Assembly: GCF_029360665.1 (NCBI RefSeq)
Contig: NZ_JARDUB010000004.1
Span: 186,001 to 250,000, forward strand
DNA from: Eudoraea chungangensis
GTDB taxonomy: Bacteria > Bacteroidota > Bacteroidia > Flavobacteriales > Flavobacteriaceae
Reading direction: 5' to 3'
DNA length: 64,000 bases
The notes beneath the pieces were generated by a model. That model searched no databases, was not told where the DNA came from, and saw nothing but the letters and a program-made list of their open reading frames with translations. Positions 11,702-31,258 of this stretch are shown piece after piece. The position numbers were made by a program, and so were the translations under genes. Each line of letters begins with the position of its first letter. Positions within the stretch are counted from its first letter, which is position 1.

Positions 11702-11782
11702 AATCAATGTCTAGTGAGTAAACCAGGGGATATTATAGTATCGGAGAAAACTCTTTGGATTTATAAAAAAGTTCCTCTTCTA

Positions 11783-12451: not shown

Positions 12452-12461
12452 TTAAAACAAT

Positions 12462-13502: not shown

Positions 13503-13521
13503 CTTAGTCTTATTTTTTATA

Positions 13522-14274: not shown

Positions 14275-14325
14275 TTAGATTCTTGTTTTATTTTTTGTTA
14301 TATATTTTTTAATCAATTTATTTTC

Positions 14326-15612: not shown

Positions 15613-15835
15613 ATTTTCTTTATTTAAAAGGGTTTGGTGCTAAAATTATCCACAGAAACACCTTTAGCTATAAAATCAGATTCCAGATTCGTTAGCATTT
15701 TCAAGACTTTTCAATAATATAAGGAGTAACTTATTCAATTAAAGCTGAAAGATTCTCATCGTAAATTCGATTTGATAAAATTTCCCTCCAACGGTAATTC
15801 ATGTGATCATAAGTATTTTGTTAATACTCACAATA

Positions 15836-16546
15836 TTATTCTTCATTTATATTATAGCAATATTGGTACAACATTTTAAAGTGTACCTTCATTTTTTCTT
15901 TTGCCAAACGTGGGTTTTGTTGTTCAATCGCGGAATAAATATCCTCGTGTTCCTGCATTCCTTTAAAGGCCTGGTCTACATCACAGACATGATATTTTTC
16001 AAAATTGGTTAAAATACCCGGAGTTATAATAAGCATTAATCGATTCATAGTCCTATTACCAGAAGCTTTAGCAATAGCTAAATGAAAAAGTAAATCTTCC
16101 TGTACTGCATCTTCACCATTTTTCACCTTAACATTATACGCATCCAGATAAGTCCGCATTGAAATGAGATCATCCGCTGTACGTCTTAATGCAGCCAATC
16201 TTGCAGTTTTTAATTCCAATAGTATTCTAGTCTCCACCAAGGATTTAAAGTTAGGATCTTCTAAAGTCAATATGTCCTCTATCATTCCATTCATAGCGGT
16301 AACGCCAATATTTGCTACAAAAGTCCCACTTTGAGGGATAGACTTCAATATTCCATAAAATTCTAAATTTTGTATGGCTTCTCTAACATTACTTCTACTT
16401 ACACCAAACTTTTCTGAAAGCGATCTTTCCGAAGGCAACTTATCCCCAGGTTCCAGATTCTTGTAATTAATAAGATTACGAATCTCAGAAATTATAGTGT
16501 TTTGAATTTCACGATTCTCACTTTTAGTAAAGACTTCTAATTTCAT
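15836..16546 (-). CDS. GntR-family (FadR/FCD subgroup) regulator of the alginate locus
   Basis: The ATG at 16546 gives 236 residues; a TTG three codons upstream is less likely. The N-terminal winged helix (about 15-80) contains the classic GntR run PGDKLPSERSLSEKFGVSRS and REAIQNLE; the C-terminal ~150 residues are the helical FCD effector domain. FadR-type regulators bind TGGTNNACCA-like palindromes and respond to small acids. Such palindromes lie 25 bases upstream of this gene and in three promoters of the locus. A GntR repressor called AusR is known for alginate control in Zobellia galactanivorans; this is a likely counterpart. The effector is probably DEH or KDG (inference). Confidence 0.9.
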   Translation of the reverse strand: MKLEVFTKSENREIQNTIISEIRNLINYKNLEPGDKLPSERSLSEKFGVSRSNVREAIQNLEFYGILKSIPQSGTFVANIGVTAMNGMIEDILTLEDPNFKSLVETRILLELKTARLAALRRTADDLISMRTYLDAYNVKVKNGEDAVQEDLLFHLAIAKASGNRTMNRLMLIITPGILTNFEKYHVCDVDQAFKGMQEHEDIYSAIEQQNPRLAKEKMKVHFKMLYQYCYNINEE

Positions 16547-16570
16547 AGATATCAATTTTTAATTCAAAAT

Positions 16571-16580
16571 TGGTTAACCA
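16571..16580. promoter_or_regulatory. single operator palindrome upstream of the GntR gene
   Basis: A perfect 10-base palindrome, TGGTTAACCA, lies 25 bases before the regulator start codon. It matches the tandem sites upstream of the lyase and susC genes, suggesting autoregulation. A weak -7 match (TAAATTTA on the minus strand) lies 11 bases upstream of it. Confidence 0.65.
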
Positions 16581-16640
16581 GACTAGTTCGCTAAATTTAG
16601 AACAAATAGATCTAACATAAAAACTACTTAGTTTTAATTA

Positions 16641-16676
16641 AGGAATACCGGCCCTTTTAATAGGCCGGTATTACCT
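16641..16676 (-). terminator. hairpin terminator after susD
   Basis: A perfect 10-base-pair GC-rich stem (16644-16653 with 16663-16672, loop 9) lies about 125 bases after the susD stop, followed on the minus strand by a T-rich stretch. It separates the susCD transcript from the regulator gene. Confidence 0.7.
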
Positions 16677-16798
16677 ATTGTAAAAAACTAACTCAAACAA
16701 CTATTATTATATTCTTTCATTTCTAATCAATTTATCTCCAATACAAAAACTCTTAGCTCGATGTACATTTATTTAGAGAGACGAGCTGAATATTACAA

Positions 16799-18139
16799 CT
16801 AGTACCCAGCGTTTTGCGTAATCACACCGTCGGTTGCAAGAATTTCTGAGATAGGAACAGGAAATACATAGTAATTAGGATTTACAGCTTCTCCAATTTC
16901 AGCATCAACAGCTCCTGTTCTCACCAAATCAAACCACCTATGTCCTTCAAAGGCCAACTCTAGTCTTCTTTCATCTAGAATAGCCTGTCTAACCTCAGCT
17001 TGCGAACTTGCCGTTCCTGTTAAACTATTTAAACCTGCTCTCGTTCTTATGTCATCCAGCAAGGGAAGCACTGTTGAAGCCGGAGCACCATTTTCGTTGA
17101 GGGCTTCTGCATATAATAGAATTATATCTGCTAACCTCATTTCTATCCAGTCATGTTCAGCACCTAGGCCTCCATCTTTAGGAAATTTTATAGCGGTAGT
17201 TCCCTCTGCACTAAGCGTAACAGCTCTTCTTAAATCGGTTCCTCCACCATTTAGATCACTGGCATCAAAAGCAGCAACTAAATCAGGGTCTACAGGAAAA
17301 TCAGATTTGGAATCATCTCCAACAAACCAGTTCCAGAAGCGAGACGCAAATGCATATTCATCTACTATAGAACCTACTATTTGTGTTGAAAAAATAATCT
17401 CTGTATTACCAGCCTCGTAGGCGGCACCAAAAATTTCACCATAGTTGGGTATTAAGCTTATACCCGCCGCTGCAGCTCCATTTACAACTGCGGCTAGATG
17501 TTGTTCAGCACTTCCATAATTACCCATGGAGGCATATACTTTCCCTAATAATCCCTGAGCTGCAAGTTTGGATGCTCTACCATCTACAATTTCAACTCCT
17601 AAGGCTGCTATAGCATCGTTCAAATCAGGAATGATAACATTGTTGTAAACCTCAGTGGCTGGTTGCCTTACTAAAATTGAGGTATCTGTTAGGCTTGGTT
17701 CAGCCGATAAATTTACCGTAACATCTCCAAACACCTGCACCAATTTAAAGTAAGCCAGGGCTCTCAAAAATTTAGCTTCTCCTATTTCCTCAGCATCGGA
17801 AGAGTTTTCAATTACAATATTCGCACTTAATATTGATTTATATGAAGCCGTATAGAACGGGCCAAAAAATTGATCCTCCATGTCTGTTAAATCACTATTA
17901 AATCTATCAAACGCAGGATATGGCTCTTCGAACATAAAAGCATTGTCCGATCTAAATTCGCCCATAACAGCCATTGGTGTAACAGATGCAAGCTGGTAGT
18001 AATACGCTGCGTTCAAAACTCCAGCAAAATCTTCCAATGAATCTGAACTAGCGATGTTTGGCGGGAATTGATCCAAATCATTATCACATGCTGTAAATAA
18101 CAGCAAGGATCCTAATACTAATCTATATATTGTTTTCAT
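16799..18139 (-). CDS. susD: SusD-like surface glycan-binding lipoprotein
   Basis: 446 residues. The lipoprotein signal ends in LLFTAC with Cys18 followed by DND. The alpha-helical TPR-like SusD fold is evident: FLRALAYFKLVQVFGDV in the first half, and the C-terminal hallmark DERRLELAFEGHRWFDLVRTG with the closing YYVFPVPISEI. It sits on the cell surface as the lid of the SusC channel and binds the glycan. It follows susC by 11 bases. The lyase context makes alginate oligomers the likely ligand (inference). Confidence 0.95.
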   Translation of the reverse strand: MKTIYRLVLGSLLLFTACDNDLDQFPPNIASSDSLEDFAGVLNAAYYYQLASVTPMAVMGEFRSDNAFMFEEPYPAFDRFNSDLTDMEDQFFGPFYTASYKSILSANIVIENSSDAEEIGEAKFLRALAYFKLVQVFGDVTVNLSAEPSLTDTSILVRQPATEVYNNVIIPDLNDAIAALGVEIVDGRASKLAAQGLLGKVYASMGNYGSAEQHLAAVVNGAAAAGISLIPNYGEIFGAAYEAGNTEIIFSTQIVGSIVDEYAFASRFWNWFVGDDSKSDFPVDPDLVAAFDASDLNGGGTDLRRAVTLSAEGTTAIKFPKDGGLGAEHDWIEMRLADIILLYAEALNENGAPASTVLPLLDDIRTRAGLNSLTGTASSQAEVRQAILDERRLELAFEGHRWFDLVRTGAVDAEIGEAVNPNYYVFPVPISEILATDGVITQNAGY

Positions 18140-18150
18140 TTTTTACTTAT

Positions 18151-21100
18151 TTAAAAATTAACATTTAAACCAAACGTATAGCTTCGAGCAATAGGGCTTG
18201 CACCAACCTGTACTCCGTAGGTAGTTGGACCCAAATAACCACCATTTGTAATCTCAACACCTTCAGGGTTATAAGAGGTATAATTACTGCCCCACAGATA
18301 TAATAAGTTAGTGGCTGCAACGTATAGTCGTACAGAATTAATGCCTATCTTGTTTATTACATCCGGATCAAGTGTATAACCTATTGTTAAATTTCTCAGC
18401 GCTACGTAAGAAGCATCTTGTATCATAGCGTCTGTTTGCCTTCTGTTCCCTATGTAAAACTCTCCATTGTTATCCGCAATACCGTCATCGTTAACATCGA
18501 AAGTATCTACCAGTCTTCCACTCCATTGTGACTCATAATAAAGTGGGTCTATGTTATAGACCTCACCTCCGTGAGATCCCTGGAATTGGAAGGACATATC
18601 AAAATCATGTAATTTTATTGAACTATTCAATCCCCAGTAAAAATCAGGAGTATTTTGACCTATTTTTACCAAATCTCCGCCATCCTCTACACTTTTTGTA
18701 TTGTCAATAACACCATCTCCATTTTGATCAACCACATAGGATTCTCCAGTGGTATTGTTTGGATGTCTTGTACCATCTTCTAAATAGATCATTTCAACAT
18801 CTCCAATGGTCTCCAATCCCCACATTTCTCCAATTTCTCCACCTACATAATTTCTAAATACAGGACCTCTACCACTTTGGCCATAAATCGTTTGAGGTAA
18901 TTCTTCTAGACCACCCAAATCTGTTATTTCTGTATTTACGGTTGATAGGTTAGCTCCCAGGCTCCATGTAAAATTCTCCTTACTGAATATTGTTGTATTC
19001 AAGTCAAATTCTACACCTGAGCTTCTTACATCCCCTGAATTCAAGACTATTGAAGTAGTACCAAGTACCTCAGAAACACTTTGATTAATCAACATATCCT
19101 CAACGTCCGAAGTATAATAGTCTACACTTAATCGCACACGGTTACTGGCAAAGCCTAAATCAATCCCGTAGTTTCTCTCTGTATTGGTTTGCCATGTCAA
19201 ATCTGGATTAGCCACATTCGACGGAATTAAGAATCCTGTTCCATAAATAGTTGCTTGCGGCTCTAGTAGACTAAGTGCATCGTAAGAACCTAAAAATGAT
19301 GTGGTTCCTAAAGACCCTGTACTAAATCGTGGCTTTATTAAACTGATGGCATCAGAGTTGTACCAAGACTCATTATGTATATTCCAACCTGCCGAAAGCG
19401 CCGGGAATGTTTCATACCTATTATTCTCTCCAAAACGGGAATCTCCATCTCTTCTAAGGGAAAAAGAAAATAAGAATCGATTATCATAGGCATAGTTAAC
19501 TCTTCCAAAAAGACTTTCCCTTACCCTAGTCTCATCTCTTTCTGTAACGGTAATATCCGCCGGATCAAATAAATTGAAATTTTGAATGTCCGTATCTGGT
19601 ACATTAACGGCATTCAAAGCAGTTCCATTTAATTTGGTAGTTTGAAATTCAATCCCACCAACAGCCGAAATATCATGTTTACCATATGTTTTGGCAAAAT
19701 TTAAAGTAGTCTCACTTACAACAGTGCTTACTTTTAAATCTGTTTGATCCATATAAGTCTGACTGGTTCTAGCCCTGGAGTCAAATCCAAGTAGTCTATG
19801 CTGATAGAATTGTGTGTCCGTAATATCTCCCCCTAATACGGTTTTTATATTGAAGCCGTCAATAAATTCATATTGCAAAAAAGTGTTAACATTGGCGTAA
19901 TATGTTTTTTGCCAACGATCTGTATTATCCAGTTTAGTCGCGGGACCTGCATCTCCAGACCCTCCAATACCATTATTTGCTCTTCCATAATGCCAGTCTT
20001 GTGCCGACATCCCTGGCTCTAACTCATAAATACTGCTCGCTTCATAAGTTGATCCTCTGTAACCATTGTCGAATGGTGCCAGGCCAAGAGCTTGTGCCTC
20101 TTGATCTAGCTGCTGAACAAATGCAATAGACTCTTCCGTGTGGTAAACCGGATGTACACCATAAGCTCTTAATAAATCTCGCATGTCATGACCAAGTATC
20201 TTTCTATTGGATGTAAATCCATTAAGACTTATTCCTGTCTTGAACTTCTTACCCAATTTTGCCTCAATATTTGCCCGAGCATTCATCCTTTCAAAACTTT
20301 CGGTGATCATTATTCCTTTTGTATTTTGATAGCCAACGGATGCAAAGTAGTTTACATCATCGCTTCCTCCAGTTACACTAAAGTCGTGACTCGTTGAACT
20401 ACCATTTCGAAATAACCAATCTTCCGGACTTATGGCACCAGGCGAATTTTCGTAAGCGTTTAATCTGTATTCCACAAATTCTGGATCTATTTGTGAAAGA
20501 TCCCAATTTCCTGCGGCAATCTCATTTCTTGAAATAGCAGCCCATTCTGGACCTGATTTAAGAATATTTTTACGGTATTTACTAGAGAAACTAGTAAAAT
20601 TATTGTAGGAAAAACTAGCTTTCCCTGTTCTTCCTTTTTTTGTGGTTACCAAAATAACCCCATTGGCACCCCTAGAACCGTAGATGGCAGCCGATGCAGC
20701 ATCTTTTAGCACTTCTAAACTCTCAATGTCGTTTGGATTAACTGTTGATAGATCTCCAGAAATTGGATAACCATCCACAACAATTAATGGGTTAGAATCT
20801 CCACTAATAGAGGAGGCTGCCCTAACCTGAATTTTTGGAGCAGCACCAGGAGAACCATCCTGCTGTTGAATCAAAACACCAGGCAACTTTCCACCTAAGG
20901 CGTCATCCACCCGAGTGGCTTGTATTGCCGCGATATCACTTCCGTCTACCTTGGCAACAGCACCCGTCAAAGATGATTTCTTACGGGTACCATAACCAAT
21001 TACAATTACTTCATCAAGCTCTGAGGTGTCTTCCTCCAAGCTTATGTTAACTGCAGTTTGATTAGTAATTGCAATGGTCTGTGAAGCAAATCCGATATAC

Positions 21101-21324
21101 GAAAATGTTAATGATTCGCCACTTGTAACACTGATAGAGTAATTACCATCAAAATCTGTCTGCACCCCCCTCGTCGTGTTCGTCACAACAATATTTACGC
21201 CAGGAATTGGAACATCATCCGAGGCAGACACTACCGTACCCGATACGGTAAATTCATTTTGAGCCATTAACGGAATGCTAAAAACCAGCAATCCAATTAA
21301 GGCCAAGTACGTTTTAAATTTCAT
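18151..21324 (-). CDS. susC: SusC-like TonB-dependent transporter for alginate oligosaccharides
   Basis: 1057 residues. Signal peptide (1-21), a carboxypeptidase-regulatory-like domain (about 24-105, containing GVNIVVTNTTRGVQTDFDG), TonB box region (DEVIVIGYGT), plug domain with IVVDGYPI and EVLKDAASAAIYGSRGANGVI, the SusC signature, and a long beta barrel ending in SYTFGLNVNF. Together with SusD it imports oligosaccharides through the outer membrane. The promoter with three tandem operators lies about 340 bases upstream, leaving an unusually long leader. The substrate is inferred from the flanking PL6/PL7 and KdgF genes. Confidence 0.96.
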   Translation of the reverse strand: MKFKTYLALIGLLVFSIPLMAQNEFTVSGTVVSASDDVPIPGVNIVVTNTTRGVQTDFDGNYSISVTSGESLTFSYIGFASQTIAITNQTAVNISLEEDTSELDEVIVIGYGTRKKSSLTGAVAKVDGSDIAAIQATRVDDALGGKLPGVLIQQQDGSPGAAPKIQVRAASSISGDSNPLIVVDGYPISGDLSTVNPNDIESLEVLKDAASAAIYGSRGANGVILVTTKKGRTGKASFSYNNFTSFSSKYRKNILKSGPEWAAISRNEIAAGNWDLSQIDPEFVEYRLNAYENSPGAISPEDWLFRNGSSTSHDFSVTGGSDDVNYFASVGYQNTKGIMITESFERMNARANIEAKLGKKFKTGISLNGFTSNRKILGHDMRDLLRAYGVHPVYHTEESIAFVQQLDQEAQALGLAPFDNGYRGSTYEASSIYELEPGMSAQDWHYGRANNGIGGSGDAGPATKLDNTDRWQKTYYANVNTFLQYEFIDGFNIKTVLGGDITDTQFYQHRLLGFDSRARTSQTYMDQTDLKVSTVVSETTLNFAKTYGKHDISAVGGIEFQTTKLNGTALNAVNVPDTDIQNFNLFDPADITVTERDETRVRESLFGRVNYAYDNRFLFSFSLRRDGDSRFGENNRYETFPALSAGWNIHNESWYNSDAISLIKPRFSTGSLGTTSFLGSYDALSLLEPQATIYGTGFLIPSNVANPDLTWQTNTERNYGIDLGFASNRVRLSVDYYTSDVEDMLINQSVSEVLGTTSIVLNSGDVRSSGVEFDLNTTIFSKENFTWSLGANLSTVNTEITDLGGLEELPQTIYGQSGRGPVFRNYVGGEIGEMWGLETIGDVEMIYLEDGTRHPNNTTGESYVVDQNGDGVIDNTKSVEDGGDLVKIGQNTPDFYWGLNSSIKLHDFDMSFQFQGSHGGEVYNIDPLYYESQWSGRLVDTFDVNDDGIADNNGEFYIGNRRQTDAMIQDASYVALRNLTIGYTLDPDVINKIGINSVRLYVAATNLLYLWGSNYTSYNPEGVEITNGGYLGPTTYGVQVGASPIARSYTFGLNVNF

Positions 21325-21471
21325 TTGTCATCGTTTTATTATTAGTAGTAAAGTTTAGTCGATATATAAAAATATACCTTGATAGAAGTTGTAAGTAACT
21401 TTATCGATTTTCAACTCCAACTAAAAACAATTTTCATGGAAAGTCAGCAAATTTTGCTATTTTTGAAAATA

Positions 21472-21567
21472 TGTTTATAGTAAAGTATAACATGTATTGA
21501 GTATTACTTCCTTCCAAAATGAAGTAATAAAATTTAAAAGGATAGGCGTGCACCTGTCCTTTTTTTT
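21472..21567 (+). ncRNA. candidate antisense small RNA in the susC leader
   Basis: On the plus strand, opposite the susC 5' leader, a TATTTTTG box (21458-21465) is followed by a 9-base-pair hairpin (21502-21510 with 21521-21529) and then an 11-pair hairpin (21536-21546 with 21553-21563) running into seven or more T. The second hairpin is continuous only on the plus strand (a G-U pair there is an A-C mismatch on the minus strand). No good -33 box is present. It could instead be an attenuator of the susC mRNA. Speculative. Confidence 0.3.
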
Positions 21568-21638
21568 GTTTATATGGGAACTAGTTTCATAAGATCGTTC
21601 AGTTTGTTTATTAGTTAATTGTTAATTCATGTATTTAT

Positions 21639-21703
21639 TGGTTCACCACACTGGTTTACCAAATTGGTTTACCAAATATATGTTATTTCTTCGTTAAAAA
21701 AAA
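21639..21703 (-). promoter_or_regulatory. susC promoter with three tandem GntR operators
   Basis: Three TGGTNNACCA palindromes at 21639-21648, 21652-21661 and 21665-21674 are spaced exactly 13 bases apart. The minus-strand -7 box TATATTTG (21673-21680) shares its last two bases with the third operator. A weak -33 (TTTT instead of TTTG) falls 19 bases further at 21700-21703. Transcription would start inside the operators, which fits repression. The leader to the susC ATG is about 340 bases. The rest of the gap to the SDR gene (21704-21777) is AT-rich and holds nothing else seen. Confidence 0.75.
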
Positions 21704-21777
21704 TTTAATTAAAAATTTAACATTCTCGGCTATTAAAGTTTTGAAAATGAGCACATGACATTCTTTTTCGTTCGCGG

Positions 21778-22542
21778 TTACATGTTATAAACACCGCCAT
21801 TGATATCAAGGGTAGCGCCTGAAATAAAGCCATCATATTCTGACGCCAAATATAAAACCGCTCTTGCCACATCATCTGCATTACCGGCCCGTTTAATAGG
21901 AATATTCGCTGTTGTCTCTGCCGCTGATTCTTCCGTTGTATGGGTATTATGGAAGGAAGTACCCAAGATAAGACCAGGAGTAACTGCGTTGACCCGTATT
22001 CCCTTTGGACCCAACTCTGAGGAAAGCGCCCTGGTAAATGTTAGTATGGCACCCTTGCTGGTGGAATAGACCAACGAACCTGGATGTCCTCCCTTGCGCC
22101 CGGCAAGCGATGCCAAATTAACAATACTGCTGTTCTCATTTTTTGCCAGATGTGAAACGGCAGCTCTAGTAACAAACATCATAGAAGTGAGGTTGATATC
22201 CATTACCTTTTGCCAGAATTCCAATGTCATTTCACTTAACATTCTTCGTGCCACAAGTGAACCGGCGTTGTTAATCAATATGTCTAATCCTCCAAACGCT
22301 GCCACCGTTTGTTCAACCAAAATATTTGCATCAGCTTCTTTTGTTAAATCTCCTCCAATAGCCACCGCTTTTTGTCCTTTACTAATAGCATAAGAGGTCA
22401 ATTGCTCTGCCGTATCGGAACTGGAAAAATAGTGAATGGCAACATTGGCGCCACTATCAATAAGGTGTTTGGTGATTGCCTCCCCAATTCCCTGAGCACC
22501 CGCAGTAATAAGTACGTTTTTTCCGGTTAATTTAATGTTCAT
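21778..22542 (-). CDS. second SDR-family oxidoreductase of the alginate locus
   Basis: The ATG at 22542 (254 residues) is preferred to a GTG 12 codons earlier. SDR motifs: TAGAQGIG (13-20, a slight variant of TGxxxGIG), NNAG (91-94), Ser145, Tyr159 and Lys163, and a C-terminal LDINGGVYNM. It resembles KduD/glucose dehydrogenase-type enzymes. It lies 90 bases after kdgF and is probably co-transcribed with it, so it acts on DEH or a related uronate ketone. Whether it duplicates the reductase at 13522-14274, uses the other cofactor or acts on another isomer is not visible. Confidence 0.88.
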   Translation of the reverse strand: MNIKLTGKNVLITAGAQGIGEAITKHLIDSGANVAIHYFSSSDTAEQLTSYAISKGQKAVAIGGDLTKEADANILVEQTVAAFGGLDILINNAGSLVARRMLSEMTLEFWQKVMDINLTSMMFVTRAAVSHLAKNENSSIVNLASLAGRKGGHPGSLVYSTSKGAILTFTRALSSELGPKGIRVNAVTPGLILGTSFHNTHTTEESAAETTANIPIKRAGNADDVARAVLYLASEYDGFISGATLDINGGVYNM

Positions 22543-22632
22543 ATTCTCTAGATAAAGCTTTTTTTTCCAATCCTGCACTCATTAGGTTTTCCTAGAAGAA
22601 TCTACCTGGGTGCAGCTATTTTTGTTTCGATC

Positions 22633-23004
22633 CTATTTATCTTTAAAGTAAGATACCGCCTCACCACTTAAAAAATCTTCTCTTACCGGGCTAAATGTGT
22701 CAATTAACATCCCTTCTTCCAAACAGACTGCACTATGCAATAAATTAGGTTCAATGTAAACCCCATCTCCTGCTTCAACAATTTTCTTTTCACCATCAAT
22801 TTCAAATTCAAACTTTCCGGAAACGCAATAGGTAGCTTGGGTGTGAAAGTGTTGGTGAGGAGCGCCCAATGCTCCTTGCTGGAACTTCACTTTTACCATC
22901 ATGATTTGGTTATCATAGCCTAAAAATTTTCTCGATACTCCTCCTCCAAGTTCTTCCCACTCTAATTCTTTTGAAGTAATATACTTTTCACTAAATCTTT
23001 GCAT
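22633..23004 (-). CDS. kdgF: KdgF, cupin that converts unsaturated monouronates to linear ketonised form
   Basis: 123 residues, a single cupin domain of the usual KdgF length. Metal ligands are His50, His52, Gln56 and His90 (in PHQHFHTQ and LLHSAV). The conserved catalytic tail DTFSPVREDFL provides Asp102, Phe104 and Arg108. The enzyme opens 4,5-unsaturated uronate produced by alginate or pectin lyases on the way to DEH. Here it sits between the PL7 lyase and an SDR. The 262 bases upstream contain no clear promoter; one imperfect operator-like sequence lies at 23113-23122. Confidence 0.93.
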   Translation of the reverse strand: MQRFSEKYITSKELEWEELGGGVSRKFLGYDNQIMMVKVKFQQGALGAPHQHFHTQATYCVSGKFEFEIDGEKKIVEAGDGVYIEPNLLHSAVCLEEGMLIDTFSPVREDFLSGEAVSYFKDK

Positions 23005-23266
23005 AATTTAACTGTCTTTTCTATTTGAAATTTTCAGGACCTGTCTATTAACAATCCTGCCTACCGCTCTTTAATTTATTATGTTTTTTCTCTACCCTTG
23101 TTACTAAGATACTGGTCTCCCAATATGTCATACTCTTTAATACTATTCTACCCTTTCCTGCAACTTAATTGCTAGCACTTACCAACAGACCTCTGCCAAA
23201 TGCCCGTCCTGCCTGAAATATTATGCTTCATCTTTTCATCGAATAATTAGACAAATTCTAAGATCA

Positions 23267-25318
23267 TTATATATTAGGTTTCGTACCAGGACCTACTGTC
23301 GCTTCTCTAAACCATACTTCGGTATAACAGCCATTCTCATACTGCTTGGTGATATCACCATTATAAGTTTCTGCACCCGTAGACCAAACCATATTTGTTT
23401 TAGGGCTTTTGCCGTTGGTTTGGTTATACGCCCCTTGTTTAAAATATCCGAGTTCTCCACTATAGGCCGTTGCACGTTCGGTTCCATCTTGCCCAATAGG
23501 CACAAAGAGTTGCTGCACTTGAGCGGGTAGATCCGATTTTTCCTGAAACTCGGAGACGATAAGGTTTTTAGTAAAGGTTCTGGTCTTATGTCCTTCACTG
23601 GAGAATGTAAGATACATGATACCCTCGTATACATTTACCTCATAACTAAATTCTTCCCCCAATTCTATACCATCTTCCGGTTCCGGAGGATAGACATTTG
23701 GCCCCGTCCCAACAACCGACAAATCATTTCCCCATACTGCGGTGGAAAAGTCCCACCTTCCAGAATTATCATTATCTGCGGTATTGATTTCATAGTTCCA
23801 AAATACAGATCCTTTATTATGGCCTGGAAATTTTTTATAAAATATCTTTAATGGCTCATTTTCATGTCCTTCACCACTGTGAATTTGGCCAATAACCGTT
23901 GCAAAAGAAGCCGGAACCCTGGCATCACCGGAAACAGAAACTTGCATTACCTTGCAGGTCCCGGTTAATTTACCCCCTTGTTCTGGCGTCCAATCTCTTT
24001 TTTCATGCAATTCAGTTCTTGTATTGCTAGAGTTTTTCGTAGTTACTCCTGAATTTGGAGTTTTATAGACCACCCAGCGCCTTGTACCGTCAATAACGGT
24101 ATAGAAAAAATCTTTATGTTCGTAGTTGCTGATATCTTCAACCTCAGTCCCGTCTCCCATCCATATTTTAAACTTATCCATAAATGGAATCACCTCATTA
24201 GGATAGACCGTTTTGGCGCTCAAGCCATCATTCGCTTGAAAATACCCGCCATTGGATATAGCGTCCTCGCTGATTGTAATATTTGCCTCTTTAAACCAAA
24301 CTTCCGCATAATTCCCATCTGCATATTGTTTTTCAATATCACCCCCATGGGTTTCGGCCCCAGAACACCAGACTCTGTTTACTTTAGGATCTTTACCGTT
24401 CGTTTGGTTATAGGTTCCCAATTTAAAAAATAAGCCCTCATCGGCATATGCCGTTTTACGTTCTAATCCATCCTGACCAATAGGTACAAATAATTTCTTA
24501 ACCTGTTCTGGTATGTTTGAGCGTTCCGTATATTCAGAAGAAATGAGATTTTTAGTAAATGTTTTGGTTTCATGACCTTCGCTAGTAAAAGTTAGATACA
24601 TCATTCCATCTTTAATCTCAACCTGATAACTGAATTCTTCACCTAAAGCAATCCCATCCTGTGGTTCTGGCGGATACGTATCTGCCTCCGTCCCTACTAC
24701 AGAAAAGTCATAGCCCCAAACAGGATACGAATAATCCCATCTACGGGAGTTATCATCCCCGGCAGTATTGATTTCATAATGCCAGAAGACGGAACCTTTG
24801 GTATGACCAGGGAATTTTTTATAAAATATTTTTAATGGTTCATTTTCGTGGCCATCTGCACTATGAATTTGGCCAACTACAACAGAGTACGTAGCCGCCA
24901 CCCTTGCATCTCCTGTAGCGGATACCTGCATTACTTTTAGCGTAGCGTTCATTTTGGCCTCCGTTAGCGGTGTCCACTTTTTTAATTGGGCCAGTTCAGT
25001 TCTTGTATTATTGGAAGTGCCATGAGTATTTCCCGCATTAGGTGTTTTAAATACTACCCAGTCAGCCTTCTCATCACTGGCAGTGTAAAAGAAATCTTTG
25101 TTTTCATAATCTGTTGCCTTACCAACATTAGAGCCGTCCCCTAAAATCAAATTCCAGTGTTGAAAAAAGGGAATAATATCATTTGCTTTTTTTGCGACAG
25201 TAGTACTCCCATCGGCTTTTTCAACATTTTGTTTATTACTTCCATCGCCGCAACTATTTAAAAATAAAACTGCCACTCCGCAGAACAAATAATGTATTAA
25301 AGTTGATTTATAATTCAT
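23267..25318 (-). CDS. two-domain PL7 alginate lyase lipoprotein
   Basis: The ATG at 25318 gives 683 residues and a clean lipoprotein signal (LNSC, Cys23); a GTG seven codons upstream is unlikely. Two PL7 (alginate lyase 2) domains follow in tandem, about 45-345 and 372-672. Each has the three family motifs: RTEL (106-109; 434-437), QIH (150-152; 478-480) and the catalytic-Tyr strand FKLGTYNQ (Tyr303) or FKQGAYNQ (Tyr631). Both domains keep the Arg, His and Tyr, so both look active. It is probably anchored at the cell surface and cuts alginate by beta-elimination. The promoter with two operators is at 25401-25452. Confidence 0.93.
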   Translation of the reverse strand: MNYKSTLIHYLFCGVAVLFLNSCGDGSNKQNVEKADGSTTVAKKANDIIPFFQHWNLILGDGSNVGKATDYENKDFFYTASDEKADWVVFKTPNAGNTHGTSNNTRTELAQLKKWTPLTEAKMNATLKVMQVSATGDARVAATYSVVVGQIHSADGHENEPLKIFYKKFPGHTKGSVFWHYEINTAGDDNSRRWDYSYPVWGYDFSVVGTEADTYPPEPQDGIALGEEFSYQVEIKDGMMYLTFTSEGHETKTFTKNLISSEYTERSNIPEQVKKLFVPIGQDGLERKTAYADEGLFFKLGTYNQTNGKDPKVNRVWCSGAETHGGDIEKQYADGNYAEVWFKEANITISEDAISNGGYFQANDGLSAKTVYPNEVIPFMDKFKIWMGDGTEVEDISNYEHKDFFYTVIDGTRRWVVYKTPNSGVTTKNSSNTRTELHEKRDWTPEQGGKLTGTCKVMQVSVSGDARVPASFATVIGQIHSGEGHENEPLKIFYKKFPGHNKGSVFWNYEINTADNDNSGRWDFSTAVWGNDLSVVGTGPNVYPPEPEDGIELGEEFSYEVNVYEGIMYLTFSSEGHKTRTFTKNLIVSEFQEKSDLPAQVQQLFVPIGQDGTERATAYSGELGYFKQGAYNQTNGKSPKTNMVWSTGAETYNGDITKQYENGCYTEVWFREATVGPGTKPNI

Positions 25319-25400
25319 TTTACAGTCTGTATTAATCACATGTTAATGTAGGAATGGTCCTGTGTTAGCTTTTGAAAAAGCTCTTTTTATTTATAATAAT

Positions 25401-25452
25401 TGGTTTACCAGTTTGGTTTACCAAAAATACATATATAAATTTGATTAGCAAA
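25401..25452 (-). promoter_or_regulatory. PL7 promoter with two tandem GntR operators
   Basis: TGGTTTACCA occurs at 25401-25410 and 25414-25423, 13 bases apart. The minus-strand -7 box TATTTTTG (25422-25429) overlaps the second operator by two bases, and a -33 TTTG lies at 25449-25452 with an exact 19-base spacer. This is a strong Bacteroidota promoter with its start inside the operator pair. The leader to the lyase ATG is about 100 bases. Confidence 0.85.
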
Positions 25453-25564
25453 TTTTTAACATAAAATCGATCTACAGTATTACAAATTATCCATGATCAA
25501 GGATTTTATAAACCAATTATTGGCTTAAGCTAATAATAAAAAGAGGCATACTATTTTTCGTAGA

Positions 25565-26566
25565 CTATCTTTTTATTGCTCCGGAAGTATCTCCATCCAT
25601 CAAATTTTTTACATTATCCAAGGAAACCATATTTACATCCCCTGGAACTGTATGTTTGAGGGCACAGGCGGCGGAAGCAAAAGCCAAGGCCTGTTTGTCG
25701 TCATAGTGTAACAGACCATAAATTAGACCCGCGGCAAAGGCATCCCCGGTACCAACGCGGTCTATGATGTGCGTAATATTAAGCATGTCACTTTTAATAT
25801 ACGCTTCCCCGTTCCACATCTTCCCTTGTATTTGGTTATGGGAAGCACTCAAGGTTCTTCTTGTTTTTTTAATCACTTTCCTGACATTGGGAAAAAGGTT
25901 GATGAGCGCTATGGCCAAATCCTGAAACTTATCTTTCGGTTCACCTAGGCCGAACATTTCACGAATACCTCTGCTACTGCTAATCACTACATCACAGTGC
26001 TCTACCAAGGTAGGAATTACCTCTTGCATTTTTTTTCCGTACTTCCACATATTATTTCGAGAATTGATGTCTCCTGAAACCATAATACCTAATTTATTTG
26101 CTGTTTTTATGGCTTCTAAACAACTTAAATAAGCCCCTTCCGAAATGGCCGGCGTAATTCCGGTCCAATGAAACCAGTCGGCATCTTTAAGTACATCTTC
26201 CCAATCTAACATGGAAGGCTTTATCAAGGAAAAAGAGGATCCTTCTCGTTCATATATTACTTCGCTAGGTCTGTGAACGGCGCCTTTTTCAAGAAAATAC
26301 TTTCCCAACATATTGTCACCATAAATAACATGTTCCGTGCTTAGCCAATGTTTACGTAAAAACTGGGTGGCCGCTTTTCCTAAGGCATTATCAGGAAAAC
26401 GCGTAACATGGGCTGCCTTCATTCCAAGATAGGCACAGGATATGGCCACATTTGCCTCCCCTCCGCCGTATACGAGCTCGAAAGAAGTGGCCTGCGAAAA
26501 TTTTTTATAGCCTGGTGGGGACAAACGCATCATTACTTCCCCAAATGTGATTACTTTTTTAGGCAT
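25565..26566 (-). CDS. second PfkB-family KDG kinase-like protein with degenerate motifs
   Basis: 333 residues, closely similar along its length to KdgK at 12462-13502. It keeps GGGEANVA, WTGITPAIS and DRVGTGDAF with catalytic Asp275. However, the Mg/phosphate motif GNEED of the first copy is replaced by SSSRG (196-200), the substrate motif DLNYR reads DINSR, and the TLRGS strand reads KTRRT. It lies 5 bases after the PL6 lyase gene and is in the operator-controlled operon. It may be a kinase with altered substrate, a weak enzyme or a regulatory pseudokinase. It is not frameshifted. Confidence 0.85.
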   Translation of the reverse strand: MPKKVITFGEVMMRLSPPGYKKFSQATSFELVYGGGEANVAISCAYLGMKAAHVTRFPDNALGKAATQFLRKHWLSTEHVIYGDNMLGKYFLEKGAVHRPSEVIYEREGSSFSLIKPSMLDWEDVLKDADWFHWTGITPAISEGAYLSCLEAIKTANKLGIMVSGDINSRNNMWKYGKKMQEVIPTLVEHCDVVISSSRGIREMFGLGEPKDKFQDLAIALINLFPNVRKVIKKTRRTLSASHNQIQGKMWNGEAYIKSDMLNITHIIDRVGTGDAFAAGLIYGLLHYDDKQALAFASAACALKHTVPGDVNMVSLDNVKNLMDGDTSGAIKR

Positions 26567-26571
26567 ATTTT

Positions 26572-28890
26572 CTAATACATTAACTTAAGTGGTAGATTTT
26601 CCTCAACTATTAATTCTCCAGAATTTTCAATAATATTATTGGAGTGTATATTGTTCTTGGCACCCCATAAACGTGCCACCAATTTGACCCTATTATCTAT
26701 AAATTTATTGTTATATAGACTAACATTTATAATCCCATAGGTATTGAGCAGAATTCCATTTTCTTTTCGAGTTCCACATTTTGTGAAGGTAGAATTTGTC
26801 ACTTCCAGATTCCCTCCCACCGTAGACTCATCGTAACCCCCTCGATAATAATCGATTACATTTTTAGGAATCCCTTCAAAATAACAATCGGAAATTATTA
26901 TGTTTTCCGCATTATAATCGCCTCGGTCGTCATTTTCCTGGGAGAGCTCAAGACCATTATTACAATTTAGCAGTTCCGTAGACTTCATTGTAATGTATTC
27001 TGAAAAAGCAAATTTGTATCCTTTCAGGACATAGTCAAAGTTTACTATTTTAGAATCTACTACCTCTAAATTGTACAGACTAGACATATTTTCTCTAAGC
27101 GGGGCAAATGCGAAGTTCTCCCCATTCCCTTCTAGTATAACGGCTACTAAGGTGAGTTCACCTTTTGGATTCATTTCGAATGCAGGAGTTTCTGCTTTTC
27201 CGGTATACCTCAGGATAGCCTTATTACTCTTGTCTGAAGAAGCTATGGTTATTTTCTTACCAATTTTTAATACTGAGTTTAGCTCATATCGGTCAGCTGT
27301 CAAAAGGATTGTATCACCAATGGCAGCATTCTCTATTGCCAATTCCAGTTCTGAGGTGGAGCCTGCATAAAGATTATTGGCACTATTATTCACAGTAGTC
27401 GACAGTGGGTACCATCCTGGGCCATATTGGGAGGTATCCATAACATTAGTCTGTTTTTCTGGTACTCCCACAACGGCTCCGACGGCATTCTTCTCCCGTG
27501 AGTTGCCGAAGAGATCTTGTGAAATCAATTCGAATTCAAAACCATTATATGTTTCCATATTTGGTTGATCATTTGTTGGGATTAAAATTTTATCCTCTAG
27601 TGTAAAAAGAGAAAAATCCTCTTGCTTAAATGCTGATTCGTGTCGGAAGAATGTCCCCTGATTATTTATCAAATTGCTCTTAAAAGTGATACCGTCTAAC
27701 GAATCGTGCGCAACTACGGGTTGTTCATCTGCATGTTCATTATAAATAAGATTATTCGCTACAATAGTCCGAATGGGCCTTTCTGAGCGGATTTCGGAAG
27801 CCGGCAACACATCTCTTTGATCAACATTAGAACCCACACCAAATTGCCAAGGCGATGTGCAATTAATCCAAGAATTATACGCCACAACGACATCCGTCAC
27901 CTGTATGTACCGATTCAATGGGGATTTTGGAATTCCGTTCATCACAGCAAGCGGACTTCTGAAAACCTTTCCTTTTAGATTATAGAAATAATTATTGGTT
28001 ACCCAATGCCCAGTCCCGATTAAACGTACACCGCCTATTTGCTCAGATTCGGTATCTCCTATAAAGTAGTTACTATCAATTATACAATAGTTCCCATGTC
28101 TCGTAACCAGCGAGCCTTCACTTTTGTAAAAAATATTATTCCGGAACTCATTAAAATTTGTTTTACTTGAAATAACCTCAACTTCACCATTACATCTTTC
28201 AAAAAAATTATTGGCCACCAAGGTATAACTAGGTGCCATGGAAGTAAAACTGTTTCCAAGCTGAATGGTCTCTGCACTTGGCCCACCTTTCGGTGGTCGC
28301 GGTCCAAAATAATTGTATCTTATTTTATGGTAATTCTTTATATTTTTATTTCCTGCCAAATCAACCCTGATGGTAGGTCCTCTATTAGATTTTCCAGCTA
28401 GGTAGCAGTGATCTAATTCATTATGGCGACCCTTAAACTGCACCCATAGATCTGCGTAGTTTCTTTGTGATTTATTGAAATCTATTATCACACAATCGGT
28501 TATCCGCGAATGGTTGGCCACCGTATCTTGGTTAATTGCGAATTCGATAACTGCTTCGGAAGGAGATGAACCTCCAGTGAAGAATAAGCCATTAACCTTC
28601 AGGTACTCCCCCCCTAGTTTCAAATCGGATTGTCCTACAATAAATACCTTCCCGGGAGTCTCTGCTTTTAAGGTTATTGGCGCTTGTTTCGTTCCATAAC
28701 CGAGTAATCGGATTTCAACATCCTTCCAATAGCCATTAGCCATAACAATTTCAGTTCCAGGAGTTGCATTGTCAATAGCACTGTTCAATTCAGTAATATC
28801 TTTTACATATATACTTTTGGAACCCTGTTTGTTATCACAAGAAAATAATAACAAAATTATGCTTAGTAGCACGAAATATCTTTTTATCAT
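26572..28890 (-). CDS. PL6-family alginate lyase lipoprotein (chondroitinase B-like)
   Basis: The ATG at 28890 (772 residues) is chosen because it starts MIKRYF with a normal lipoprotein signal ending LLFSC (Cys18); an in-frame ATG at 28908 adds six acidic residues. The first ~480 residues are a right-handed beta-helix with PL6 motifs NGEVEVISSKT and SLVTRHG, giving the catalytic pair Lys243 and Arg264, 21 apart as in characterised PL6 enzymes. A second beta-helix domain from ~507 starts with a sequence resembling the first domain but lacks the pair. It is an exported lipoprotein degrading alginate by beta-elimination. It forms an operon with the small kinase before it and KdgK-like after it. 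Confidence 0.93.
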   Translation of the reverse strand: MIKRYFVLLSIILLLFSCDNKQGSKSIYVKDITELNSAIDNATPGTEIVMANGYWKDVEIRLLGYGTKQAPITLKAETPGKVFIVGQSDLKLGGEYLKVNGLFFTGGSSPSEAVIEFAINQDTVANHSRITDCVIIDFNKSQRNYADLWVQFKGRHNELDHCYLAGKSNRGPTIRVDLAGNKNIKNYHKIRYNYFGPRPPKGGPSAETIQLGNSFTSMAPSYTLVANNFFERCNGEVEVISSKTNFNEFRNNIFYKSEGSLVTRHGNYCIIDSNYFIGDTESEQIGGVRLIGTGHWVTNNYFYNLKGKVFRSPLAVMNGIPKSPLNRYIQVTDVVVAYNSWINCTSPWQFGVGSNVDQRDVLPASEIRSERPIRTIVANNLIYNEHADEQPVVAHDSLDGITFKSNLINNQGTFFRHESAFKQEDFSLFTLEDKILIPTNDQPNMETYNGFEFELISQDLFGNSREKNAVGAVVGVPEKQTNVMDTSQYGPGWYPLSTTVNNSANNLYAGSTSELELAIENAAIGDTILLTADRYELNSVLKIGKKITIASSDKSNKAILRYTGKAETPAFEMNPKGELTLVAVILEGNGENFAFAPLRENMSSLYNLEVVDSKIVNFDYVLKGYKFAFSEYITMKSTELLNCNNGLELSQENDDRGDYNAENIIISDCYFEGIPKNVIDYYRGGYDESTVGGNLEVTNSTFTKCGTRKENGILLNTYGIINVSLYNNKFIDNRVKLVARLWGAKNNIHSNNIIENSGELIVEENLPLKLMY

Positions 28891-28939
28891 TTCAAAATTT
28901 TCTAACATTATAGAATAATAAACTCATTACAACTTATGG

Positions 28940-29440
28940 TTACCAGTATTTTCTGGCCATATATTTTAAGATGGTATCTACAATTTCTTCTTCCGAGTAA
29001 GTCATATCAATAGTCAAGGCCCACTTTGGGATTTCAAGTGTTTCAAAATCCGATTTAAGTGCTGAAACGGGTCGATCAGAAGCACTATTTATTTTTAATC
29101 GCTGGGCAGCATTTTCAAAAGTATCGTTCATAAATACCCAATCTAGTGGATGGTCAATATTTGCAGTTAACCTTTGACGATGTTCTTTCTTCAATATCGA
29201 ACATGAAACTACACAACCCTTTAGAGTCGATTCCCTCACTATCAATTCCTCGACGGAAGTCAACCATTTTTCTAAATCTATATCCGGCGGTAGGTTTCCA
29301 TCCGAAATATCATTTTCCATAAAAGGTCTGTCAACATCAAAGAATGGAACTTCCAGTCTTTGTGCTAATTTCTGACCTACAACGCTCTTACCTGTACCGC
29401 ACACTCCAACAAGGATGACTATATAATTATTATTTGCCAT
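28940..29440 (-). CDS. gluconokinase/shikimate kinase-like small P-loop kinase
   Basis: 166 residues. Walker A is GVCGTGKS (12-19), followed by FFDVDRP and CSILKKEHRQRL, which resembles the S-A-L-K-x-x-Y-R-D strand of gluconate kinases. The HP..N..KM substrate segment of true gluconokinases is not present. It is the first gene of an operon with the PL6 lyase and KDG kinase-like genes, behind an operator-controlled promoter, so it should phosphorylate a sugar acid made from alginate or act on a related substrate. The exact substrate is unknown. No signal peptide, so it is cytoplasmic. Confidence 0.75.
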   Translation of the reverse strand: MANNNYIVILVGVCGTGKSVVGQKLAQRLEVPFFDVDRPFMENDISDGNLPPDIDLEKWLTSVEELIVRESTLKGCVVSCSILKKEHRQRLTANIDHPLDWVFMNDTFENAAQRLKINSASDRPVSALKSDFETLEIPKWALTIDMTYSEEEIVDTILKYMARKYW

Positions 29441-29454
29441 ATTATATTTAAAAT

Positions 29455-29506
29455 TGGTTTACCAGTTTGGTTAACCAAAAATACTTATATTTGTAAGACT
29501 AACAAA
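29455..29506 (-). promoter_or_regulatory. promoter of the kinase/PL6/kinase operon with two tandem operators
   Basis: Operators TGGTTTACCA (29455-29464) and TGGTTAACCA (29468-29477) are again 13 bases apart. The minus-strand -7 TATTTTTG (29476-29483) overlaps the nearer operator by two bases, and the -33 TTTG (29503-29506) is 19 bases away. The arrangement is identical to the PL7 promoter. The same operators lie upstream of the divergent plus-strand gene. Confidence 0.85.
29486..29493 (+). promoter_or_regulatory. -7 box of the divergent isomerase/RraA operon
   Basis: TATATTTG matches TAnnTTTG. A TTTG sits at 29466-29469, 16 bases upstream, inside the operator pair, so the regulator would cover the -33 region of this promoter. 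The distance to the ATG at 29558 is about 65 bases. Confidence 0.55.
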
Positions 29507-29557
29507 TTTTTAAGACAAAAAGCAGTAAATATTCTCTAGAACTAACCACAGAAGTAA

Positions 29558-30517
29558 ATGACTAAGGCCGATTACAACAGAAGAAGATTTATGAAATTAT
29601 CCGCCGCAACTTTGGCGGCTGTTCCTCTTATGGGGTTTGAAAACACCGTATATAGTACCTTAACACCTCCGTCTCAGGACATAGAGGTATACCTATTTTC
29701 GAAACACCTACAGTTTCTAGGTTTTAAGGATATGTCGGAGGCCGCAGCCGAGATGGGTTTTAACGGACTTGATTTGACTGTACGTCCAAAAGGACATGTT
29801 TTACCCGATAGAGTAACGGATGATTTACCCAAGGCGGTAGACGCGATGAAGAAATTTGGATTAGCTCCTAAACTCATGACAACCAATGTAGTGGATTCAA
29901 CTAATCCAGTACAGCTTCAAATTTTAGAAACTGCCAGCAAATTAAACTTCACACATTATCGAACAGGTTGGTTAAAATATCCGGAGGATAAGAATATAGT
30001 AGCAAGTCAGGCAATCTTCAATCAGCAGTTCCGTAACCTAGCTATTGTAAACAAAGAATTAGGATTAATCGGTGGATATCAAAACCATACCGGCAAGCAC
30101 GTTGGTGCGCCTATTTGGGACCTGCCGCCCATTCTAGATAATGAAAACAATAAATTCATGGGGTGCCAATATGATATTAGGCACGCTGTGGCAGAGGGAG
30201 GTGGCAGTTGGGAACTCGGTTTAAAACTGGTTGCTCCGTTGATAAGATCTATCGTTATTAAGGATTTTAAATGGGGTAAAGTAGATGGCAAATGGAAACC
30301 TATAAACGTACCGCTTGGTGAGGGTATGGTAGATTTTACGAACTATTTTTCCTTACTAAAAAAATACAAAATTAAAGTACCTGTTTCCCTGCACCTAGAA
30401 TACGATTTGGGAGGAGCGGAGCATGGAGCTTCTACTATTTCAATGGATAAAAAGGAAGTCTTCAATCAAATGAAAAAAGACCTTTCTTTTTTACGTGCTA
30501 AATGGGCAAACGCCTAG
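29558..30517 (+). CDS. Tat-exported sugar phosphate isomerase/epimerase-like TIM-barrel protein
   Basis: 319 residues. A twin-arginine signal NRRRFMKLS is followed by a hydrophobic AATLAAVPL stretch, so the protein is probably periplasmic or membrane-anchored. The body is a xylose isomerase-like TIM barrel (AP endonuclease 2 superfamily), with GFNGLDLTVRP early, YDIRHA in the middle and LHLEYDLGG near the end, carrying likely metal-binding acidic and histidine residues. It is transcribed away from the PL6 operon and shares its operators. The substrate is unknown; a uronate or ketose derived from alginate is the contextual guess. Confidence 0.8.
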   Translation: MTKADYNRRRFMKLSAATLAAVPLMGFENTVYSTLTPPSQDIEVYLFSKHLQFLGFKDMSEAAAEMGFNGLDLTVRPKGHVLPDRVTDDLPKAVDAMKKFGLAPKLMTTNVVDSTNPVQLQILETASKLNFTHYRTGWLKYPEDKNIVASQAIFNQQFRNLAIVNKELGLIGGYQNHTGKHVGAPIWDLPPILDNENNKFMGCQYDIRHAVAEGGGSWELGLKLVAPLIRSIVIKDFKWGKVDGKWKPINVPLGEGMVDFTNYFSLLKKYKIKVPVSLHLEYDLGGAEHGASTISMDKKEVFNQMKKDLSFLRAKWANA

Positions 30518-30538
30518 TAAGTTACCAAACAGTATAAT

Positions 30539-31258
30539 ATGACTTCCATCTCAGATACAACAAGAAAAAAATTAAGCTCGGTCAGTACGGCAACCATCGC
30601 CACATGTCTCTTTAAGAAAGGGCTTAAAAACCAGTTTATACAGGATGTACGACCTTTAAAAAAAGGAAGAGACAATATGGTTGGCGAAGCTTATACCCTA
30701 CGGTACATACCCGCCCGTGAAGATTTGAATCCCATTACAGTATTCCAGGACCCCAAGCATCCCCAACGCATCGCCGTAGAGCAATGCCCCAAAGGTCATG
30801 TAATGGTCATTGACAGCAGAAAAGACGCCCGCGCTGCATCTGCTGGATCTATTCTAGTTACTCGACTGATGATTAGAGGAGCTGCAGGAATAGTCACAGA
30901 TGGTGGTCTCAGGGATTCGGCAGAAATTGCTTCCTTAGCCCTGCCATCCTATCATAAAAAGCCCTCGGCTCCAACTAATTTAACTCTTCATCAGGCTATT
31001 GATATAAATGTTCCTATTGGTTGTGGAGATGTAGCAGTTTTTCCGGGAGATATGGTGGTTGGAGACGATGACGGTGTCATAATTATACCCCATAAATTGG
31101 TTGAGGAGGTGGCAGAGGAATGCGTAAAAATGACACTTTACGAAGAGTTTGTTATGCAAAGGGTGGGAGAAGGACAGGCAATAATTGGCCTATATCCACT
31201 TACCGACTCAGAATGTAAAAAAGATTTCTCGCGATGGTTAGAAGACAAAAATAGTTAG
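30539..31258 (+). CDS. RraA-like / HMG-aldolase family protein
   Basis: 239 residues. The family core is clear: GEAYTLRY (49-56), SAGSILVTRL (101-110) and G-A-A-G-I-V-T-D-G-G-L-R-D with Arg125 and Asp126, the residues that bind substrate and metal in class II 4-hydroxy-4-methyl-2-oxoglutarate aldolases. Family members cleave or decarboxylate 2-oxo acids; others inhibit RNase E. It starts 21 bases after the TIM-barrel gene, so the two form an operon behind the GntR operators. Inference: a non-phosphorylating cleavage of a 2-keto acid derived from alginate. Confidence 0.82.
   Translation: MTSISDTTRKKLSSVSTATIATCLFKKGLKNQFIQDVRPLKKGRDNMVGEAYTLRYIPAREDLNPITVFQDPKHPQRIAVEQCPKGHVMVIDSRKDARAASAGSILVTRLMIRGAAGIVTDGGLRDSAEIASLALPSYHKKPSAPTNLTLHQAIDINVPIGCGDVAVFPGDMVVGDDDGVIIIPHKLVEEVAEECVKMTLYEEFVMQRVGEGQAIIGLYPLTDSECKKDFSRWLEDKNS

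Follow-up and report, generated by a model that had tools for sequence, protein, structure and literature searches.

A compact promoter–operator module is repeated on the minus strand of the alginate polysaccharide utilisation locus (PUL) of Eudoraea chungangensis, upstream of susC, of the gene for a PL7 lyase and of an operon of a small kinase, a PL6 lyase and a second kinase. The locus lies in a 64,000 nt stretch of contig NZ_JARDUB010000004.1 (positions 186,001–250,000, forward strand), here called the window; coordinates count from its first base. Based on the window, the genome and related genomes, we read these modules as repressible sigma-A promoters of an alginate regulon of the AusR type, named after the alginate repressor of Zobellia. 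They would be controlled by the GntR/FCD regulator encoded at 15836–16546, with a fourth, attenuated module driving gntR itself and, probably, an antisense RNA layer at susC. For this joint reading, which rests on sequence, we estimate a probability of roughly 0.85; within it, the binding of the regulator, the start sites, the effector and the antisense RNA, both its existence and its effect, are predictions. Flavobacteria play a major part in the degradation of brown-algal alginate in the sea, and the switch for these genes appears to follow one rigid design, which was found in roughly one in four of the 397 genomes sampled from the family. The composite is specific enough to identify candidate alginate regulons in family members with sequenced genomes.

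The operator TGGTNNACCA occurs in exact form at eight sites in the window (16571, 21639, 21652, 21665, 25401, 25414, 29455 and 29468). All of them are located inside the alginate locus (16571–29477), three at susC, two at PL7, two at kinase/PL6 and one at gntR. As a tandem with a 3-bp linker and up to three mismatches, the pattern gave five matches in the window, four of them exact, compared to a mean of 0.22 in shuffled sequence. The exact tandem is absent from the rest of the 3.73-Mb genome, where two mismatches yielded one additional match.

A preliminary description of this DNA had proposed a fixed composite geometry for the three minus-strand promoters, and the exact sites and boxes were found as described. 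The −7 boxes are TATATTTG at susC (21680–21673) and TATTTTTG at both PL7 (25429–25422) and kinase/PL6 (29483–29476). In each case the final TG of the TAnnTTTG box also belongs to operator 1, and the operator starts follow a 13-bp period. Three tandem operators precede susC (21639–21674; exact motif and genome search), while the PL7 module (25401–25429) and the kinase/PL6 module (29455–29483) have two each (25423–25414 and 25410–25401; 29477–29468 and 29464–29455), in agreement with the counts given earlier. The same is true of the TTTG reported exactly 19 bases upstream of the box in two of the three promoters: this element of the −33 type is present at PL7 (25449–25452) and kinase/PL6 (29503–29506), while susC has TTTT instead. 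The list of three operons holds for these three, but the description overlooked a fourth site, in front of gntR (16571–16580).

The sigma-A box of Flavobacterium psychrophilum is placed at −12 to −5 in the part of the source available to us (PMC9723704). On this basis, transcription would start at about 21668 (susC), 25417 (PL7) and 29471 (kinase/PL6), in each case at base 7 of operator 1. The arrays are thus predicted to cover approximately −6 to +17 with two operators and to reach +30 with three.

The protein encoded at 15836–16546 (minus strand) was assigned to the FadR subfamily by its Pfam domains (GntR 2.3e-19, FCD 7.8e-23) and is the sole FCD protein found in the genome. In an alignment of 81 sequences, 110 residues are conserved at 97.5% or more, and D151, H155, H200 and H222, which probably form the metal/ligand site of the FCD domain, belong to this set. 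The gene sits in the alginate PUL together with susC/D, the lyases and enzymes of 2-keto-3-deoxygluconate (KDG) metabolism. In sites of FadR-subfamily regulators, 2 nt separate the GT of the TKGT box from the AC of the ACMA box, according to the accessible portion of PMC4494728, and TGGTNNACCA has this form with the same 2-nt separation. Domains, sole FCD protein, operator form and the co-occurrence described below make this protein a well supported candidate for the one regulator of the promoters, as the preliminary description had suggested; its further proposal of a compact repressible design fits the geometry.

Conservation was analysed in 80 orthologue loci (1.56 Mb) from named flavobacterial genomes, kept from 299 relatives found and with protein identities of 73–85%; near-identical loci were counted separately unless labelled nonredundant. 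The loci contain 254 exact sites, compared to 13–22 in three order-1 Markov shuffles. Since arrays were defined by steps of 13 or 26 bp, the spacing was tested only by counting pair distances against shuffles: among pairs up to 60 bp apart, spacings of 13 bp (54), 26 bp (21), 39 bp (1) and 56 bp (1) were observed, and none in the shuffles. With one mismatch allowed, 100 tandem arrays were obtained, including the three of the window. They precede susC (72), gntR (10), PL7 (8), PL6 (3) and the small kinase (1), with six unassigned. The TAnnTTTGG fusion of box and operator is present in 72/72 susC, 10/10 gntR and 15/18 other arrays. TTTG at 19 bp is mostly a feature of the latter (12/18, versus 4/72 at susC and 1/10 at gntR); 53 of the 72 susC arrays have TTTT. 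Most susC arrays comprise three operators (49), the others two (19) or four (4), and none but the array of the window has three exact operators. The arrays contain 80 mismatches, 78 of them at positions 4 and 7, the innermost pair of conserved bases, and this concentration suggests a graded affinity of the operators. In two loci (L158, G207:C4:224643–224690, and L157, G213:C25:69265–69312) a triple operator array stands between inward-facing −7 boxes. Divergent open reading frames (ORFs) flank the array of L158, where a pair of promoters facing each other may have the three operators in common.

The gntR promoter keeps the geometry in a degraded form. Its single exact operator (16571–16580, minus strand) stands in the register of operator 2 and ends 24 bp before the ATG (16546). 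Upstream of it (16584–16599), the box TAAATTTA (16599–16592), in the same register as in the other modules, lies over a degenerate operator 1, TAGCGAACTA (16593–16584, three mismatches). An exact operator was found in 62 of 81 gntR upstream regions (52 nonredundant), and the register is kept in 44 of these 52. Among these 44 promoters, 27 have at least three mismatches in the left half of operator 1, the part overlapping the box, 32 have a perfect right half ACCA, and in 29 the box ends in TA rather than TG. Because the operator half over the −7 box is lost while the register is kept, we read this promoter as autoregulated, in an arrangement that should leave it leaky.

The preliminary description had recommended a search for the composite in the genome and its relatives. 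The strict composite was detected in 98 of 397 family genomes, always together with a GntR orthologue, whereas the reversed-pattern control gave none among the matches listed. That palindromes of AT-rich DNA merely mimic operators by chance is a negligible prospect: when one mismatch is allowed, TGGTNNACCA does show no more than a mild enrichment in the window (30 versus 20.5 expected), but the shuffles contained no 13-bp pairs, and the reversed composite was absent from the matches listed. A GntR orthologue (E 1e-20 or better) is encoded in 102 of the genomes, so that 98 have both, none the composite only, four GntR only and 295 neither (Fisher 4e-89; presence lists were assembled by hand from separate searches, with totals that match the tallies). 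When the pattern was relaxed at the inner bases and applied to nine genomes, the composite appeared in three of the four GntR-only genomes and in none of five GntR-negative ones (three PL6-positive, two of the same genus).

Twenty composites, hand-picked mostly for their distance from gntR, were inspected for the genes behind them. All of them lie 39–211 bp upstream of a long co-directional ORF. These ORFs encode eight PL6 and three PL7 lyases, two SusC-type TonB receptors, two SKI/GntK-like kinases, a fusion of a kinase with 6-phosphogluconate dehydrogenase (6PGD), an Nramp protein and three proteins with a secretion-tail domain only. Sixteen of the 20 copies therefore precede lyases, SusC-type receptors or kinases, as predicted for a trans-acting alginate regulator.

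Some observations weigh against the assignment of the composite to this GntR protein. The exact −7 fusion is missing in three of the 18 arrays outside susC and gntR, and 19 of 81 gntR upstream regions lack an exact operator. The GntR-positive genome G242 (47% identity) has not even the relaxed composite, and the copy in front of the kinase–6PGD fusion (L136) has another GntR gene (52% identity) some 3 kb away, which may encode the actual regulator there. Moreover, only three PL6 genomes are without GntR (composite in 0/3), and co-occurrence can therefore not separate GntR from the locus. The GntR gene could then be a passenger of alginate loci whose operators are bound by another regulator. 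A candidate exists, as the genome encodes two proteins with a GntR helix-turn-helix (HTH) domain, the second on another contig and without an FCD match, and GntR and lyases do travel together (PL6 in 94/397 genomes, 91 of which have the GntR orthologue). We nevertheless consider a passenger role very improbable: the operator has the FadR-subfamily form, an exact site precedes gntR in the majority of loci, the five GntR-negative genomes lack the composite, and AusR is reported in this role in Zobellia, as far as the consulted excerpts go.

Under the preferred reading, with the GntR protein as repressor, GntR/FCD dimers would occupy TGGTNNACCA palindromes that recur with a 13-bp period, beginning at the −7 box and extending over the first 20–30 transcribed bases. 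Repressor and polymerase would be mutually exclusive on account of this stacking. Both box and start site would lie under a bound dimer, and dimers further downstream would add to the block. Sites 13 bp apart should be rotated by roughly a quarter turn relative to each other, which could allow the dimers to pack side by side. An effector, probably 4-deoxy-L-erythro-5-hexoseulose uronate (DEH) or KDG, would bind the FCD domain, whereupon the DNA would be released. At gntR, loss of the operator half over the −7 box would lead to leaky expression of the regulator.

The same protein might instead act as an activator or dual regulator. A hint of an additional DNA-binding factor comes from susC, where TTTG is scarce (4/72) and an element unique to this promoter is found in the spacer between the −33 and −7 positions (21681–21697, minus strand), consisting of TTAAC (21697–21693) and TAACA (21685–21681) with TAAC repeated 11 bp apart. 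The operators, however, are at or downstream of the −7 box, where initiation would be blocked, the spacer element does not resemble the operator, and AusR is described as a repressor in the passages available to us. An activating or dual role is accordingly rated as quite improbable. The spacer element is possibly the site of a second regulator. Among susC arrays, TTAAC is present in 59/72, TAACA in 49/72 and both in 48/72, compared to 0/28 of the other arrays. In its strict form the element occurs once in this genome without mismatches, with seven additional places at exactly three mismatches. Wide conservation is not indicated, as the strict form was found in 7 of 199 family genomes, each time 0.2–16 kb from gntR (coordinates compared by eye), versus a GntR orthologue in 49 of 199; most GntR carriers are thus without it.

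The susC leader, 344 nt from the predicted start to the ATG, appears to hold a second layer of control. On the plus strand, fold, covariation and a covariance model predict an antisense RNA of about 98 nt (21470–21567, predicted ends). It comprises three hairpins (approximately 21470–21494, 21502–21529 and 21536–21563) and a run of eight T (21560–21567), and is preceded by a predicted −7 box, TATTTTTG (21458–21465, from the alignment). This RNA, expressed from its own promoter within the leader, would probably pair with the leader and dampen susC. We lean slightly towards regarding the leader as a switch with two layers that has been conserved in numerous genera, with an operator-buried start, a mini-ORF and an undescribed antisense RNA of about 98 nt with promoter and terminator.

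The leader alignment omitted three of the 72 susC leaders, each shorter than 190 nt. The alignment of the predicted RNA retained 58 of 63 nonredundant leaders; the remaining five (L048, L062, L068, L072 and L083) were set aside as lacking a clear first hairpin. The box reads TAnnTTTG in 45 of the 58 sequences, and TA is kept in 57. A covariance model built from the 58 was run over 98 sources (1.71 Mb) and matched 66 of them below an E value of 1e-8, once each and always on the strand opposite a susC leader with an array (66/72), while the best match elsewhere reached 9e-6 (L090). Among the omitted leaders, L068 was matched (4e-9), and L062, L083 and L072 weakly. The predicted length, measured to the start of the T-run and between predicted ends, has a median of 92 nt in 56 leaders (range 71–102). 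The loop is C-rich, with CCCUCC in most relatives and CCUUCC here, and the leader contains the G-rich complement.

The hairpins could alternatively belong to the sense strand, as an attenuator or riboswitch of susC. With TTTT behind it, the first hairpin could serve as a weak sense terminator, the sense leader also folds beyond shuffles (z −2.83), and an ORF of 2–8 codons is located upstream of the hairpins in 55/55 leaders examined, compared to 28% of letter-shuffled sequences. This count covered 55 of the 72 leaders with a limit of eight codons preset in the script, and the encoded peptide varies; in the window, the mini-ORFs are ATGAAACTAGTTCCCATATAA (21570–21590, minus strand) and ATGAATTAA (21622–21630, minus strand). 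The base pairs, on the other hand, favour the antisense strand. Over 1044 pairing cells, the antisense strand shows 69 G.U and 13 non-standard pairs, the sense strand one G.U and 81 non-standard pairs. On the antisense strand, runs of at least six T (6–10) are found in 62 of 67 leaders, while sense runs measure 4–5 in 49 of 67, and the TAnnTTTG box has the fitting place and strand. The sense-strand attenuator was dropped as the principal explanation because pairing and T-runs favour the opposite strand, and it is regarded as unlikely.

For the antisense RNA, the 98-nt sequence of the window folds with a z of −4.21, and the covariation score was reached by none of 500 shuffles. A number of results limit this prediction. 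Of the 66 matched sequences, 58 had trained the model, and six of 72 leaders stay below its threshold. One base pair contributes 39 of the 69 G.U pairs, leaving 30 versus one without it. Changes on both sides were seen in two of 18 pairs, which 26 of 500 shuffles equal, and the shuffles ignore relatedness. The sense fold mentioned above counts here as well, and no −33 box of the antisense RNA was found. A known Rfam family was considered and rejected: 4227 models run over 11000–31000 of the window gave no credible match, and the two hits with E values up to 1 were both below the gathering score and away from the antisense RNA. The literature search found no antisense RNA counterpart in an alginate or flavobacterial PUL, although one may still be in print. 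If the prediction is correct, this RNA would determine how much leaky transcription is needed before transporter is made.

The core of the finding is of a known kind because it matches the AusR system of Zobellia galactanivorans. AusR, published in 2020, is a GntR-family alginate repressor of an alginate PUL with single, double or triple operators (PMC7874173), like the one, two, two and three operators found here. Its binding is prevented by alginate breakdown products (PMC7874173, PMC8286568), and it represses most alginate genes at several target loci (PMC7874173, PMC8286568, PMC8073546). The likeness is one of published description, taken from citing papers, and Zobellia is outside the 80 loci; a GntR HTH plus FCD was found here, whereas FCD is assumed for AusR. 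Unlike the Zobellia setting, this genome yielded no match to PF05426 (PL5/17-type lyases) and has PL7 and PL6 in a single locus. The promoter–operator core is another member of the AusR system, and its interpretation is largely known. To the picture of AusR conveyed by the citing papers, the present locus adds the attenuated gntR promoter, the susC spacer and the predicted antisense RNA, the last of which would be the most novel of its extra conserved features.

Other known systems are similar in part. Escherichia coli NanR, likewise a GntR-type repressor with repeated sites in the promoter region, places three dimers side by side on (GGTATA)3 (PMC8012715, partial text). Its direct repeats are about half a turn apart and its cooperativity depends on an N-terminal extension, in contrast to the palindromes, 13-bp spacing and −7-box fusion found here. 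UxuR-type sites of the FadR subfamily share the 2-nt gap between TKGT and ACMA boxes; that survey analysed no FadR-subfamily regulator from Bacteroidetes, and its accessible sections contain no fixed 13-bp arrays (PMC4494728). For the antisense RNA, the closest relatives in concept are the DonS family of Bacteroides, cis-antisense RNAs of 78–128 nt opposite PUL susC genes with a negative effect. Bacteroides thetaiotaomicron has 32 such RNAs, whose correlations with their PULs are positive as well as negative (PMC7366714, PMC10994844, both seen in part). Like DonS, the RNA predicted here from sequence is encoded opposite a susC homologue. It differs in belonging to Flavobacteriaceae and a GntR-controlled alginate locus, and in forming one conserved family across many genera. 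If true, PUL antisense RNAs would be a control layer common to Bacteroides and marine Flavobacteriaceae, extended beyond Bacteroides and the gut by a conserved, testable case.

On the minus strand, the genes of the locus are arranged in the order GntK/SKI kinase, PL6, PfkB kinase, PL7-PL7, cupin, SDR, susC, susD and gntR, followed by MFS, SDR, PfkB kinase and 2-keto-3-deoxy-6-phosphogluconate (KDPG) aldolase. susC (18151–21324) encodes a SusC/RagA TonB-linked receptor (TIGR04056, 2.8e-223). The susD-like gene (16799–18139) was assigned by its place after susC and by NCBIfam matches to SusD and NanU, which are weak and do not reach the cut-offs. The PL7 alginate lyase (23267–25339) is double-domain, with two stretches matching PF08787, and the PL6 lyase (26572–28908) matches PF14592 (2.4e-203); matches to both families in this genome are confined to the locus. 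The PfkB-family kinase (25565–26566; PF00294) is KDG-kinase-like by position. The small GntK/SKI-type kinase (28940–29440; PF01202, and TIGR01313 at 7.7e-18 but below the cut-off) is encoded by the first gene of its operon. GntK/SKI-like small kinases also stand behind composites in other genomes (L121, L122 and L136), in L136 as the fusion to 6-phosphogluconate dehydrogenase.

The region between gntR and the MFS/SDR/kinase/aldolase genes (15613–15835) has no exact operator, and these genes may thus be co-transcribed with gntR or otherwise controlled. Two genomes of the same genus (G104 and G304) have neither a GntR orthologue nor the composite, and the locus therefore looks accessory in the genus.

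Regulon targets outside the locus were considered for this genome and rejected, as no alginate gene was found behind the listed matches of the exact pattern TTTGGTNNACCA. Among its 23 matches in the list, 12 are on the forward and 11 on the reverse strand, compared to 10 and 6 for the control. Fifteen places are outside the locus, 12 of them within ORFs of at least 100 aa. One of the remaining three, the single site TGGTAAACCA (L016, G000:C4:118942), starts 25 bp before a gene of the beta-lactamase family (serine hydrolase); the other two are located 101 bp before an isochorismatase-family gene and 331 bp before a 150-aa ORF.

The KDPG aldolase gene is adjoined on its 3′ side by a gene for an Nramp-type transporter (10427–11707, minus strand). 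In L126 an Nramp gene is found directly behind a composite, which hints at a role of Nramp in the regulon.

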